Shown here: in pieces, positions 14,847 through 21,038 of the stretch
Layout of the letters: the number at the start of each line of letters is the position of its first letter
Numbering within the stretch: the stretch's first letter is position 1
From: an uncultured Gemmata sp.
Lineage (GTDB): Bacteria > Planctomycetota > Planctomycetia > Gemmatales > Gemmataceae
Assembly (NCBI GenBank): GCA_937924775.1
Contig: CALDUT010000001.1
Location: 558,001 to 622,000 of the forward strand
DNA: 64,000 nt
Direction of reading: 5' to 3'
Position numbers and translations under genes: made by a program
Notes under the pieces: generated by a model
Databases searched by the model: none
Seen by the model: only the letters and a program-made list of their open reading frames with translations
What the model was told of the DNA's origin: nothing

Positions 14847-15809
14847 ATGAAAGAGATCAAGCGGTTATGCAGATTCAATGGTTTTACGCTGATTGAACTT
14901 CTGGTGGTAATTGCGATTATTGCCATCCTCATCGGTTTCCTTTTGCCTGCGGTACAAAAGGTTCGTGAGGCGGCTGCGCGGATGAAATGCAGCAATAACC
15001 TCAAGCAACTGGGCTTGGCATTGCACAATTTCCACGACACTTACAACGAGTTTCCGCGTAATAACCCGTTGGTGACTCGTCTTAGCGACGGTCGAGCTTT
15101 TGTTGAGAGACCATGGACGATCACGCTTTTGCCCTACCTGGAACAGAATAACCTGTTCCAACAGTGGAACCTCGGGCTTGGTTACGCGGAAGGCACGAAC
15201 CGGGCGTTGGTGGCCACCCCAATACCTGTGTACAAGTGCCCTTCGTCACCAGGACAGCCTATTGAGTCGTTTCTTCCGCCACCGCCTAGCTTCTCGGCCG
15301 ACCATGCCGCCCTTGGGGGTAGTCCGTTCAACGCATGTTTGGTCGAATATGCCCCGGTCCTGAGTGTGGGTCGCCCACCCATGGGTGTCAATGATCCGCG
15401 GGACGACGGTCTGTTGCAGCAAGTGCGGCGTGTCACTATAGCCAATGTGACTGATGGCTTGAGCAATACGCTGGCTTTTGGTGAGAACTCCGCATGGCGG
15501 CAAGGGATGATTCGCGGGGGGCGGCCTCATCCGACTTTCCCTAATAACGCGGCCGGTTTCGGCTTTCTTGGAGGCTGGGTGCGACTGCTACCAGTTCCCA
15601 CAGATAACTCCGGAGCGACATTACGTGGCGGTCTATGTCTTATCAATTGCACGAACTATGCTGGCTTGAACATGTACAGCTTCCACAGTGGTGGGGTGAA
15701 CATCGCCCTTGCGGATGGCAGTGTACGTTTCCTCCGTGAAACGGTCAGTATGGATGCGGTCTATCGATTGATGGCCGTAGCCGATGGACTGCCCAACATT
15801 GAGGAGTAA
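14847..15809 (+). CDS. DUF1559 pseudopilin-like protein
   Basis: The N-terminus [24 protein letters not shown] is a textbook type IV prepilin methylation/cleavage site (Gly at -1, Phe +1, Glu +5) followed by the pilin helix and [22 protein letters not shown]. The C-terminus carries the DUF1559 H-X9-DG motif in [20 protein letters not shown]1559 proteins are hugely expanded in planctomycetes; their function is not established, but they are processed like pilins and reach the cell surface. 320 aa, normal length. GAGGAA precedes the ATG. Likely co-transcribed with the lipoprotein before it. Confidence 0.9.
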
Positions 15810-18180: not shown

Positions 18181-18318
18181 GCCGCGGGTGGCTCCCCTAC
18201 CGCTACCGAGCACAAACGTTCTGGAAACTGTGATTCGTACACATGGCCGGGTGTGAAAACCCGGGGGGATGACCGACTCGGAGTGGACAGCGGCGGAGAA
18301 TGTAATAAGGTGAACAAT

Positions 18319-18499
18319 CGACAGGTTCGTTTCCCCCGCCGGGGGAAACGATGAAAAGGGAAGCCCGGTGAGAATCCGGCGCAGGGCCGCTGCTGTATTC
18401 GGCCAGATACTCGGGTGCATGACTGCCACTGCGCAAGCCTGCGTGGGAAGGTAACTCGAGACATCGCGACGAGCCGTAAGCCAGAAGACCTGCCTGTCG
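18319..18499 (+). promoter_or_regulatory. Cobalamin (B12) riboswitch aptamer
   Basis: The conserved cobalamin elements occur in order: an ACAGGTTCG start; a perfect 10-bp hairpin (CGTTTCCCCC/GGGGGAAACG); GATGAAAAGGGAAGCCCGG; GAGAATCCGGCGCAGGGCCG followed by CTGCTGT; TGCCACTG; GTGGGAAGGT; and the B12 box AGCCAGAAGACCTGCC. Paired ends CGACAGG (18319-18325) and CCTGTCG (18493-18499) close the P1 helix. It precedes a membrane protein, a BtuF-like protein and a PP-loop ATPase on the same strand, so adenosyl- or other cobalamin would switch this unit off. Confidence 0.9.
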
Positions 18500-18510
18500 C
18501 AACGTGTTCA

Positions 18511-18605
18511 GGTGCCTCGGCTCCGGGCGGCCGGAACGACAGTCTGGCTCCAACGACCGCGTCGCGATCGCTGTCCTTCCGCCGTTGGGGAGCCTCGGAG
18601 GCACC
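18511..18605 (+). promoter_or_regulatory. Putative riboswitch expression platform hairpin
   Basis: GGTGCCTC plus GGCTCC (18511-18524) pair with GGAGCC (18589-18594) and GAGGCACC (18598-18605), a 14-bp stem with a 3-base bulge, between the aptamer and the ATG at 18641. Inside it, CGACAG (18537-18542) can pair with CTGTCG of the aptamer P1 strand (18494-18499), which would make the two states exclusive. There is no long T-run, so translational or Rho-dependent control is as likely as intrinsic termination. Confidence 0.5.
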
Positions 18606-18640
18606 TTGTTCGCTCGTACCCAGCGAAAGAAGGTGTTCTC

Positions 18641-19192
18641 ATGGAAACCCCATCTCGTCCCTTTGCCCCCCAATGGCGTGTTCTTTGCCTGGGGGGGTTG
18701 ATTCTTGTGGCCGTGGTGGCACGATGGATTCCGCATCCGCCTAACTTCACCCCGATCGGGGCACTGGCGCTATTTGGCGGAGCCCGTTTTGCGGACCGGC
18801 GGCTGGGATTGCTGCTGCCGCTGGCGGCGCTTTTCATCAGCGATTGCTTACTCGGCCTGCATGTGCTGATTCCGGTGGTCTACGGCAGCTTTGCCATCAA
18901 TGTGCTTTTGGGCCGCTGGCTCCGCACACGACGAACGCTCCTTACAACGGCGGCCGTCACGTTGCTCGGATCAGTGCAATTTTTTCTCGTGACGAACTTT
19001 GCCTGCTGGCTGTTGTGGTATCCGCACACGTTGGAAGGATTGGTCGCCTGCTATGTGGCAGCCCTGCCGTTTTTCCACAACACACTCTTGGGCGATGCCG
19101 TTTTCGTCACGGTGCTGTTCGGTGGGCTGGCTTTGGCCGAGCGAATCATTCCGGCCATCCGTGAACCCCGCGCACAACCGGTACTCGCTTGA
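18641..19192 (+). CDS. Small integral membrane protein under B12 riboswitch (DUF6580-like)
   Basis: 183 aa with five or so transmembrane segments: VLCLGGLILVAVVARWI, FTPIGALALFGGARF, LLLPLAALFISDCLL, YGSFAINVLLG, FFLVTNFACWLLWYP and VFVTVLFGGLALAERI. The NFTPIGALALFGGA and TNFACW blocks resemble the DUF6580 family of small membrane proteins (from memory, moderate certainty). Size and topology are like the S-component of an ECF vitamin transporter. Because it is the first gene after a cobalamin riboswitch, a role in uptake of B12 or a precursor is the best inference. The ATG follows the riboswitch leader; an upstream in-frame start would lie inside the hairpin. Confidence 0.7.
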   Translation: METPSRPFAPQWRVLCLGGLILVAVVARWIPHPPNFTPIGALALFGGARFADRRLGLLLPLAALFISDCLLGLHVLIPVVYGSFAINVLLGRWLRTRRTLLTTAAVTLLGSVQFFLVTNFACWLLWYPHTLEGLVACYVAALPFFHNTLLGDAVFVTVLFGGLALAERIIPAIREPRAQPVLA

Positions 19193-19276
19193 AGCGGCAG
19201 AATGAGAAACGCCCGCCGGTTGTCGGGCGGACCAACCCCACGGGCTGCCGCCACACGCCTGAACCTGAGGTTCCCT

Positions 19277-20224
19277 ATGCGTATTGTTTCACTCCTGCCC
19301 AGTGCCACAGAGATTGTCTGCGAACTGGGGCTGGGCGGGCAGCTCGTGGGCGTGACCCACGAGTGCGATCATCCCCCGTGGGTCGCAACCCTGCCGAAAG
19401 TGACCCGCACCCTCATTCCGCACAACGCGACAAGCCAGCAGATCGACGCTCTGGTCCGGGAGCGGTTGAAGACGCAACGGGCCTTGTACACCCTCGATCA
19501 GCCCACCCTCGAACGCCTGCGGCCCGAGTTGATCGTGACACAAGCCCTCTGCGATGTGTGTGCCGTGGCCGAGGCGGAAGTGGCTGCAGTGATACAAACC
19601 TTGCCGGGTCGGCCCCGGGTGGTCAATTTGGAACCGGCCTCGCTGGACGACGTCTTTGACTGTCTGCGGTGGGTTGCGGACGCGGCGAACGTGCCTGCGC
19701 GGGCTGAACCGGTGATCACCCGGCTGCAGCAGCGTGTGGAAACGGTTCGCCGCCGCAGTTTTGGCCTCACCGCTCGGCCGCGGGTCGTCGTGTTGGAATG
19801 GATCGACCCACCGTTCAACTGCGGCCATTGGTCGCCGGAGTTGGTCCAACTGGCCGGCGGCAGCGAAGGTATCGGCCGGGCTGGGCAACCCTCACGCACC
19901 CTCTGTTGGCAAGAGGTGGTCGATTTCGACCCCGAAATTCTCGTCTTGGCCTGCTGCGGCTTCACCGTCGAGCGAACGCTGCACGACCTCCCGATCCTGG
20001 CGGCCTACCCTGGGTTTGCCGAATTGGCCTGTGTGCGGCGGGAGCAGGTGTTCGTGATCGACGGAAACGCCTATTTCAGCCGTCCCGGGCCGCGACTGGT
20101 GGACAGTCTGGAAATCCTTGCCCACGCCTTGCATCCCGAGGTTCACCCCCTGCCCCCCGGGCGGCCCGCGGCTCGGCGCCTGACTTCGACGGAACTTTTG
20201 GCCGGTAGCGCGGTACCCGCGTGA
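19277..20224 (+). CDS. BtuF-like cobalamin-binding protein (periplasmic-binding fold)
   Basis: The sequence starts directly with MRIVSLLPSATEIVCELGLGGQLVGVTHECDHP, the strand-helix opening of BtuF/FecB-type ABC binding proteins, and has PELIVTQALCDVCAV, FDPEILVLACCGF and FVIDGNAYFSRPGPR. Unlike BtuF it has no clear signal peptide with this start, so it may be cytoplasmic; a longer in-frame start 75 bases upstream adds a non-hydrophobic Arg-rich stretch. Cobalamin-binding proteins of this shorter, leaderless type are known next to B12 genes. It is the second gene of the riboswitch unit, 84 bases after the membrane protein. 315 aa. Confidence 0.8.
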   Translation: MRIVSLLPSATEIVCELGLGGQLVGVTHECDHPPWVATLPKVTRTLIPHNATSQQIDALVRERLKTQRALYTLDQPTLERLRPELIVTQALCDVCAVAEAEVAAVIQTLPGRPRVVNLEPASLDDVFDCLRWVADAANVPARAEPVITRLQQRVETVRRRSFGLTARPRVVVLEWIDPPFNCGHWSPELVQLAGGSEGIGRAGQPSRTLCWQEVVDFDPEILVLACCGFTVERTLHDLPILAAYPGFAELACVRREQVFVIDGNAYFSRPGPRLVDSLEILAHALHPEVHPLPPGRPAARRLTSTELLAGSAVPA

Positions 20225-20330
20225 TCGCGCAACAGTTCTCGGGGTAGCGACGACGAATACCGGAAAAGTCTTCTTCGCGGGGCAGTGTTACCAGGAAAGC
20301 GGGACAGTTCTTCACTCGCAGGGGGCCGGC

Positions 20331-21038
20331 ATGAAAGCCCAAGCGTTGCTGTCGTGGAGTTCGGGCAAAGACTCCGCGTGGGCCTTGCATGTTCTCCGCC
20401 AGCGGGCCGAAGTCGAGATCGTAGGGCTCCTCACCACCTTCAATGAAGTTTTCGACCGGGTGGCCATGCACGGGGTCCGACGCGACATTGTTGAAGCCCA
20501 AGCCGCGGCGGCCGGCCTGGCCCTGTGGCCGGTCCCCCTGCCATCGCCCTGTTCCAACGAAGCCTATGAAGAGCGGATGCGGGCCGTGATCCACCGGGCC
20601 CGGACCCAGGGAATTACCGCGATCGCGTTTGGGGATTTGTTCCTCAGCGACATTCGCGCCTATCGCGAACGGCAACTGGCCGGTACGGGCCTGACGCCCC
20701 TATTTCCTCTTTGGGATACCCCGGCGGCAACGCGTTCTCTGGCCCAACAGATGCTCGCCGGAGGGCTGAAAGCCATTCTCACCTGCGTCGATTCCCGGCA
20801 GTTGTCGCCGGGGCCGTTCGTGGGTCGCACATTCGATCATCAGTTCTTGCAGGAATTGCCGGAAGGAGTGGACCCCTGTGGCGAAAAGGGAGAGTTTCAT
20901 ACCGTCTGCTACGCCGGGCCCATGTTCGCCCACCCCCTGACGCTAACGCGTGGCGAAGTCGTCGAACGGGATGGCTTCTGGTTTTGTGATTTTCGGCTGA
21001 CAGATACGGCCAGGAGCCAGACGGTGATTTTCGGCTGA
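20331..21038 (+). CDS. PP-loop ATPase of the DUF71/COG2102 family (B12-linked subgroup)
   Basis: LSWSSGKDSAWALHVLR is the SGKDS PP-loop of ATP pyrophosphatases. TTFNEVFDRVAMHGVRRDI, AFGDLFLSDIRAYRE, FVGRTFDHQFLQELP and CGEKGEFHTVCYAGP are the DUF71/Dph6 signatures. Eukaryotic and archaeal members amidate diphthine; in bacteria, comparative genomics has predicted a subgroup that acts in B12 salvage. Its place directly after the BtuF-like gene in a riboswitch unit fits that subgroup. Bacteria do not make diphthamide. 235 aa. GGGGGCCGGC lies just before the ATG. Confidence 0.85.
   Translation: MKAQALLSWSSGKDSAWALHVLRQRAEVEIVGLLTTFNEVFDRVAMHGVRRDIVEAQAAAAGLALWPVPLPSPCSNEAYEERMRAVIHRARTQGITAIAFGDLFLSDIRAYRERQLAGTGLTPLFPLWDTPAATRSLAQQMLAGGLKAILTCVDSRQLSPGPFVGRTFDHQFLQELPEGVDPCGEKGEFHTVCYAGPMFAHPLTLTRGEVVERDGFWFCDFRLTDTARSQTVIFG

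Follow-up and report, generated by a model that had tools for sequence, protein, structure and literature searches.

A riboswitch-led gene unit in a Gemmata genome and DUF6580 as a candidate corrinoid importer

What might be the role of a small membrane protein encoded behind a cobalamin riboswitch? We considered this question for a stretch of 64,000 nucleotides (hereafter the window) from an uncultured Gemmata sp. of the Planctomycetota (assembly GCA_937924775.1, contig CALDUT010000001.1, positions 558,001 to 622,000), in which a riboswitch is followed by genes encoding a membrane protein of family DUF6580 (PF20221), a leaderless BtuF-like protein and a PP-loop ATPase of family DUF71. Judging from predicted structures and gene context, DUF6580 is probably an inner-membrane importer of corrinoids, and the unit would be a B12-repressed operon for import and processing in which the BtuF-like and DUF71 proteins act in the cytosol. 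An earlier interpretation made from the DNA letters (the sequence-only reading) had described a cobalamin aptamer heading three same-strand genes, and this description was borne out by an Rfam match of 99.4 bits, by Pfam matches to the three proteins and by the recurrence of the arrangement elsewhere. Its suggestion that the membrane protein could be the transporter has been strengthened, because the predicted fold lies nearest to BtuM and the S-components and because the linkage to B12 is repeated outside the planctomycetes. BtuCDF is absent from many bacteria that depend on B12, and the importer that they use is described as unknown (PMC6072759). As a multi-phylum family with recurrent B12 riboswitches and a BtuM-like predicted fold, DUF6580 is a concrete candidate for such an importer.

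Predicted fold and binding pocket of DUF6580

The membrane protein had been regarded as having no assigned function. It is not unclassified, as it matches the PF20221 profile with 189.7 bits against a Pfam cut-off of 27 bits; what stands is that Pfam describes DUF6580 as a family of unknown function. NCBI product names for the family include 'putative transport protein', which would be in line with a role in import. An AlphaFold2 model computed from the window protein and 79 relatives, with the protein of locus L083 excluded as partial, had a predicted local distance difference test score (pLDDT) of 95.7 and a predicted template modelling score of 0.89. When this model was compared with known structures by VIA-align, BtuM with cyanocobalamin ranked first (8c7p; Z 13.8, 3.1 Å over 158 residues, 13% identity) and BtuM with hydroxycobalamin second (Z 13.7), followed by S-components of energy-coupling factor (ECF) transporters (ThiT, RibU, FolT and BioY, Z 9.4–12.1; 5edl, Z 7.9) and CbiM (Z 8.7), with the first row outside this group at Z 6.0. 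These matches point to an S-component fold. The B12 S-component of ECF type, CbrT (PMC6072759), was not among the VIA-align rows shown. The partial DUF6580 gene at L083:6206-6547 lies on a contig of a metagenome-assembled genome, where an assembly error is possible.

BtuM is a solitary B12 transporter of Thiobacillus denitrificans (PMC6072759), to which DUF6580 is alike in its predicted S-component fold over nearly the full length and in its linkage to B12 genes. The residues described for the BtuM pocket are H28, D67, C80, Y85 and R153 (PMC6072759). Among 80 aligned DUF6580 rows, His32 is conserved in 77, Asp68 in 79 and Tyr81 in 79, and these residues are the order-matched counterparts of H28, D67 and Y85, a pairing based on order and secondary structure rather than on residue-level alignment, which counts against leaning on it heavily. 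The place of BtuM Cys80, between helices 3 and 4, is taken in DUF6580 by position 74, which is His (54/80) or Tyr (15/80). The loop-3 Cys that serves BtuM as cobalt ligand occurs in none of the 80 rows at positions 71–79 and in three at positions 69–80, and no counterpart to R153 was found. We therefore rejected DUF6580 as a member of BtuM, the invariant loop-3 Cys being missing. If the pairing is right, DUF6580 would ligate cobalt via His or not at all and, unlike BtuM, would not decyanate. The two families also differ in distribution, in that BtuM is reported mostly from Proteobacteria (PMC6072759), whereas DUF6580 occurs in many phyla, including the Candidate Phyla Radiation (CPR).

A motif in helix 1, AXXXA, is used by ECF-dependent S-components for docking to their module (PMC11109136). 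In DUF6580 it is not conserved: only 12 of 80 rows have it at any place in this helix, and the commonest register accounts for six; this favours a protein that acts without an ECF module. Thus, DUF6580 is like the ECF S-components in its predicted fold and differs from them in the unconserved AXXXA motif and in its setting, which in the loci seen is a B12 gene context and not an ECF operon. According to a survey of S-components, many unannotated hits look like members of this group, and neither 'PF20221' nor any word starting with 'DUF' occurs in its main text (PMC11109136). No open-licence PMC paper that mentions DUF6580 was found, and the available part of a 2009 comparative study (PMC2667541) contains nothing bearing on these genes.

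B12 genes and riboswitches around DUF6580

Relatives were searched in one genome per species, which gave at least 593 pattern matches, at least 583 of them confirmed. The best 80, chosen by likeness to the window protein via one conserved peptide pattern, were kept, so that the counts below are not a census. According to record titles, they belong to Planctomycetota, Acidobacteria, Verrucomicrobia, Bacteroidetes, Proteobacteria, Rhodothermales, Ignavibacteria, CPR and others, and most are metagenome-assembled. Open reading frames (ORFs) were called up to 7 kb on either side of DUF6580 (less at contig ends) and compared with the window trio; a neighbour was counted within 3 kb, a BtuF-like gene at E<1e-40 and a riboswitch-model match at E≤0.01. 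DUF71 lies within this distance in 25 of 80 loci, always on the same strand (25/25), a BtuF-like gene in 17, and both together in 15. The sequence-only reading had proposed looking for a shared gene order across planctomycetes, and the order riboswitch, DUF6580, BtuF-like, DUF71 was indeed found in L028, L029, L032 and L069 (loci are numbered with L). The order DUF6580-BtuF-DUF71 is that of planctomycetes near the window; others have DUF71-DUF6580-BtuF, L052 has DUF71-BtuF-DUF6580, and in phyla farther from the window the trio genes are present in altered order. In several relatives, L032 and L069 among them, the trio ORFs as called touch or overlap, as in an operon.

The riboswitch model matched in 36 of 80 loci, and all 46 matches lie on the DUF6580 strand; a match stands upstream of DUF6580 in 33 loci, within 1 kb in 14. 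The model was built from 13 sequences, six of them from counted loci (L028, L032, L044, L067, L069 and L089), which match by construction because they were used in its training. When 23 of the 80 loci were submitted to Rfam, 13 of the 16 model-positive ones were confirmed at the gathering score, and the model-negative L077 proved to carry an adenosylcobalamin (AdoCbl)-II riboswitch, so that cobalamin or AdoCbl-II riboswitches were found in 14 of the 23. In a sample of the phylum, DUF6580 was present in 11 of 199 genomes, the window genome included, and a cobalamin riboswitch in 5 of the 11 DUF6580 loci fetched from this sample, the window locus excluded. No match was obtained in a plasmid search for DUF6580.

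Other neighbours were surveyed in the same loci. Around the 53 loci without adjacent DUF71 or BtuF-like gene (122 proteins), we observed TonB receptors (10), DUF4430 (8), ribonucleotide reductase (RNR) barrels (6), YceI (5), adenosyltransferases of PduO type (4) and BtuR type (3), and one MetH, while the 27 linked loci (89 proteins) have TonB plug domains (13) and FecCD permeases (3). In the CPR, DUF4430 adjoins DUF6580 in L077, L078, L082, L085, L090, L092 and L104, L082 and L104 being from the same assembly. A cobalamin or AdoCbl-II riboswitch is also present in L077, L078 and L090, and an RNR with a TSCPD domain lies nearby in L082 and L090. The pairing of DUF6580 and DUF4430 is thus a candidate for a minimal B12 uptake set; DUF4430 is also mentioned in a paper on vertebrate B12 binders (PMC4350170). 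We found no open-licence PMC paper that combines cobalamin riboswitch, planctomycetes and transporter, nor one that joins cobalamin riboswitch, CPR, transporter and ribonucleotide reductase.

Partner proteins, proposed route and rival explanations

The sequence-only reading had called the BtuF-like protein leaderless, which agrees with the predicted structure: the model aligns from its first residue with E. coli BtuF (1n2z, precursor numbering) from residue 24 on, and an alternative start at 19202 would add 25 residues that are rich in Arg and Pro and do not form a hydrophobic leader. The AlphaFold2 model (pLDDT 90.8) has the substrate-binding protein (SBP) fold of heme- and B12-binding proteins, with matches to a heme protein of P. 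aeruginosa (Z 24.2) and to E. coli BtuF (Z 23.1). Cysteines C30, C92, C95 and C227, which form part of an HECD motif, a CxxC motif and a further Cys position, do not vary in any of the 14 aligned rows, and each of the 16 strong matches (E<1e-100) from the riboswitch loci has HECD together with CxxC[AS]. Thus, the protein is like BtuF and the periplasmic heme-binding proteins in its fold and differs from them in having no signal peptide and in these invariant residues. As for a secreted partner of BtuCD, there is no leader, and no BtuC was detected in the genome. The reducing cytosol would suit a protein that is rich in thiols and has no leader, and we therefore propose the BtuF-like protein as a candidate cytosolic acceptor of corrinoids, although it may instead handle a metal or cobalt in the cytosol and not serve as a receptor in transport.

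For DUF71, the sequence-only reading had invoked a link to B12 salvage, and the motifs agree: the window protein has SWSSGKDS and PCGEKGEFHT, in which His replaces E188 of Dph6, and is on this signature of the DUF71-B12 kind. The same His signature is found in 27 of 29 DUF71 ORF pieces of linked loci after relaxing the pattern (17 of 29 with the strict one), the other two being halves of the split gene of L061. That gene (L061:3068-3998) is divided over two reading frames on a contig of a metagenome-assembled genome, and an assembly error is possible. The window copy is the only DUF71 match in its genome. It resembles the DUF71-B12 subgroup (de Crecy-Lagard et al. 2012, PMC3541065) in the His for Dph6 E188, in being bacterial, and in lying near a BtuF-like gene and a candidate transport gene. 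In that proposal, the protein performs a CbiZ-like cleavage to cobyric acid, from which CbiB then rebuilds the cofactor (PMC3541065). The window protein differs in that CbiB, which such a bCbiZ-like role feeds, was not found in the window genome, and in that its partner is DUF6580 rather than BtuCD. The published CbiZ-like role therefore does not fit the window genome; with no CbiB found, DUF71 must act otherwise, unless the assembly lacks a CbiB gene that the organism has. The question of what DUF71-B12 proteins do is constrained by this case.

The window genome is 97.04% complete in 27 contigs, and its inventory comprises the families searched, with cobalamin adenosyltransferase, class II RNR, CbiZ and CobS left out. 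Its one B12-binding-domain match is a MetH with the five expected domains. No TonB plug domain was found. There are two FecCD matches, of 29.9 and 28.5 bits, one of which on rescanning was an ABC-3 permease (192.5 bits); BtuCD was rejected as importer here, since these matches are weak and the rescanned one belongs to another family (the neighbouring ORF was not rescanned). A CbiQ match of 105.5 bits (G000:C20:45388-45912, G000 being the window genome) stands beside a CbiO-like ATPase (ABC_tran, 99 bits), the two together spanning L113:3538-5399 on the minus strand. No cbiM is located beside this pair; cbiM is on another contig (G000:C26, 158.7 bits). The organism thus uses B12 and shows no known outer- or inner-membrane B12 importer among the families searched.

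How might corrinoids be acquired in such a cell? When cobalamin is scarce, the riboswitch would let RNA polymerase pass a terminator-like hairpin behind the aptamer. On the periplasmic side, a corrinoid would enter a DUF6580 pocket lined by the conserved residues His32, Asp68, His/Tyr74, Tyr81, Asn119 and Trp123. DUF6580 would then move the bound corrinoid inward by facilitated toppling, as has been proposed for BtuM, and probably needs no ATP-driven ECF module for this. In the cytosol, the BtuF-like protein may receive the corrinoid, which would be trapped and possibly reduced or held base-off, and DUF71-B12 may then modify it in an ATP-dependent manner to yield a usable cobamide without CbiB. 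The cobamide consumer found in the genome is MetH.

A different source of energy would be involved if DUF6580 were a true corrinoid S-component in need of an ECF module, supplied by the cbiQ-cbiO pair elsewhere in the genome. Such a pair exists, and one ECF module can serve several S-components (PMC7755397). E. coli has no ECF module (PMC6072759). However, the docking motif is not conserved and cbiQO has a CbiM partner of its own in the genome, and we regard this explanation as unlikely. Genes for cobalt and for precursors are under cobalamin riboswitches too, so that the substrate of DUF6580 might be cobalt, a lower-ligand base or some other precursor of corrinoids; alternatively, DUF6580 might transport nothing and act as a scaffold or sensor, as MreD or 5TMR domains do. 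The S-component fold is common to MreD and sensor kinases, and CbiM is among the structural matches. However, the best fold match is BtuM, the failure to find CbiB argues against de novo or precursor use in this genome, and the neighbours in other phyla include proteins that use or handle whole cobamides (RNR, adenosyltransferases, TonB receptors and BtuF-like proteins), all of which makes these roles improbable. The BtuF-like protein could also work in the periplasm as a conventional binding protein for a BtuCD importer that escaped detection, with DUF6580 as an accessory; its SBP fold, the presence of BtuF among the top matches and the three FecCD permeases among the 89 neighbours of linked loci are compatible with this arrangement. 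However, it lacks a leader, its four Cys are invariant, and the nearly complete genome holds no convincing FecCD permease, so that we consider this arrangement very unlikely indeed.

Several observations weigh against corrinoid import by DUF6580. In a plain Foldseek search, S-components came first, but their E-values started at 0.04 and none fell below 0.001; BtuM was missing from the 50 rows shown and reached the first rank only after realignment. A profile of the 80 DUF6580 rows gave no match to PDB sequences at E≤10, and phmmer searches with two single members matched no B12 or S-component protein. Because the S-component fold is also found in MreD and 5TMR kinases (PMC11109136), the fold alone is no proof of transport. 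Rfam did not bear out the model-positive loci L045, L082 and L085, and FecCD permeases also occur at some linked loci in other genomes. In 38 of 80 loci, none of a riboswitch-model match, DUF71 or BtuF-like gene is present in the fetched DNA, which is the kind of relative that the sequence-only reading had named as contrary to its proposal; this case applies in part, as some of these loci adjoin B12-related genes or another class of B12 riboswitch. The signal around the 38 is thin (RNR 3, adenosyltransferase 3, TonB 3 and DUF4430 3, in 110 of 147 picked proteins). Finally, the window genome has a second, diverged DUF6580 (G000:C1:727898-728377; L016:4854-5450, minus strand; 112.7 bits), and the fetched 10 kb around it contain neither a cobalamin riboswitch nor the trio, so that membership of the family does not by itself make a protein a B12 protein. 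Some members may do something else or be transcribed alone.

Layout of the unit and pilin-like genes behind riboswitches

The features of the unit are listed in Table 1. The interval delimited by the sequence-only reading began 13 bases within the aptamer and ended at the exact DUF71 stop. The aptamer aligns with the full RF00174 model (1–189), far above its gathering score of 31.5 bits, and is the sole Rfam match at the gathering score within the window; the genome has two cobalamin riboswitches in all, the other on G000:C19. The gaps between genes are 84 bases (DUF6580 to BtuF-like) and 106 bases (BtuF-like to DUF71).

Table 1. Coordinates and supporting scores of the riboswitch-led unit in the window
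Feature	Position	Strand	Score
Cobalamin riboswitch aptamer (RF00174)	18306..18511	+	99.4 bits, E 1.2e-23
Long hairpin abutting the aptamer, likely expression platform (intrinsic-terminator-like)	18509..18608	+	folding z -2.24
DUF6580 (PF20221) membrane protein, 183 aa, ATG 18641	18641..19192	+	Pfam 189.7 bits
Leaderless BtuF-like protein (PF01497 Peripla_BP_2), 315 aa, ATG 19277	19277..20224	+	Pfam 33.2 bits
DUF71/COG2102 PP-loop ATPase (PF01902 Diphthami_syn_2), 235 aa, ATG 20331	20331..21038	+	Pfam 88.1 bits

The hairpin behind the aptamer folds better than shuffled sequences in the window and also in L028 (z -2.88) and L029 (z -2.76). Its outer stem is GGTGCC/GGCACC in the window and GGCGCC/GGCGCC in L029, a two-sided change, and the T tract on its 3′ side is TTTTT in L028 and L029 and a broken TTGTT in the window. 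A scan for consensus promoters and terminators yielded no promoter, and the hairpin was not among its hits. From these three sequences (L191 gave no useful alignment), the hairpin is likely a terminator-type expression platform.

Cobalamin riboswitches are widespread in the class of the window, Planctomycetia, being present in 106 of 118 sampled genomes. For 80 of these riboswitches (L151-L230), which belong to 67 genomes and were picked from a ranked list and not at random, we examined a downstream stretch of at most 7 kb. In 49 of the 80, a pilin-like protein, recognised by its N-methylation motif, starts within about 1.2 kb of the riboswitch start, and in only three is the motif found farther out (up to 7.4 kb of stretch). 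DUF6580 lies within about 7 kb in 17 of the 80; a pilin-like gene accompanies it in 11 of these 17, and BtuF-like and DUF71 genes are both present in 11 of them. In 24 of the 80, none of the four is present. The two pilin-like proteins scanned against Pfam (L017 and L022) are both DUF1559, and the former gene (L017:5675-6769, from G000:C19:108622 onward) follows the other riboswitch of the window genome. In a tree, 38 of 50 riboswitch-linked pilin-like proteins, the one on G000:C19 included, form one supported group (96/97) without controls, and the other 12 lie among the controls; the tree has only eight controls, of which several sit on very long branches and one (L051) comes from a locus with a riboswitch-model match, and C_L022_5 was counted as riboswitch-linked, as L022 has a riboswitch.

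These genes bear on how B12 crosses the outer envelope in bacteria without TonB receptors. Perhaps the pilin-like DUF1559-type gene encodes an envelope component of B12 uptake where such receptors are missing; no open-licence PMC paper joining DUF1559 and cobalamin was found. More tentatively, we speculate about a planctomycete route across two membranes, which is possible though doubtful, in which riboswitch-controlled pilin-like DUF1559 proteins, often accompanied by a small lipoprotein-like ORF, would replace the TonB-dependent BtuB and capture corrinoids at the outer envelope, DUF6580 would import them across the inner membrane with no energy module, and the thiol-rich cytosolic BtuF-like protein and DUF71 would convert them independently of CbiB. 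If this were true, DUF6580 would be among the main missing bacterial B12 importers, down to the CPR with RNR as the user.

Two minor observations concern the same kind of gene. A further pilin-like gene, recognised by its motif only, lies at 14847-15809 of the window, upstream of the riboswitch and outside its control. In addition, a small lipoprotein-like ORF of about 90–120 aa follows the riboswitch-linked pilin-like gene in L022 (8658-9017, minus strand, where it has no Pfam match) and likewise in L122, L126, L129, L132, L134 and L145.

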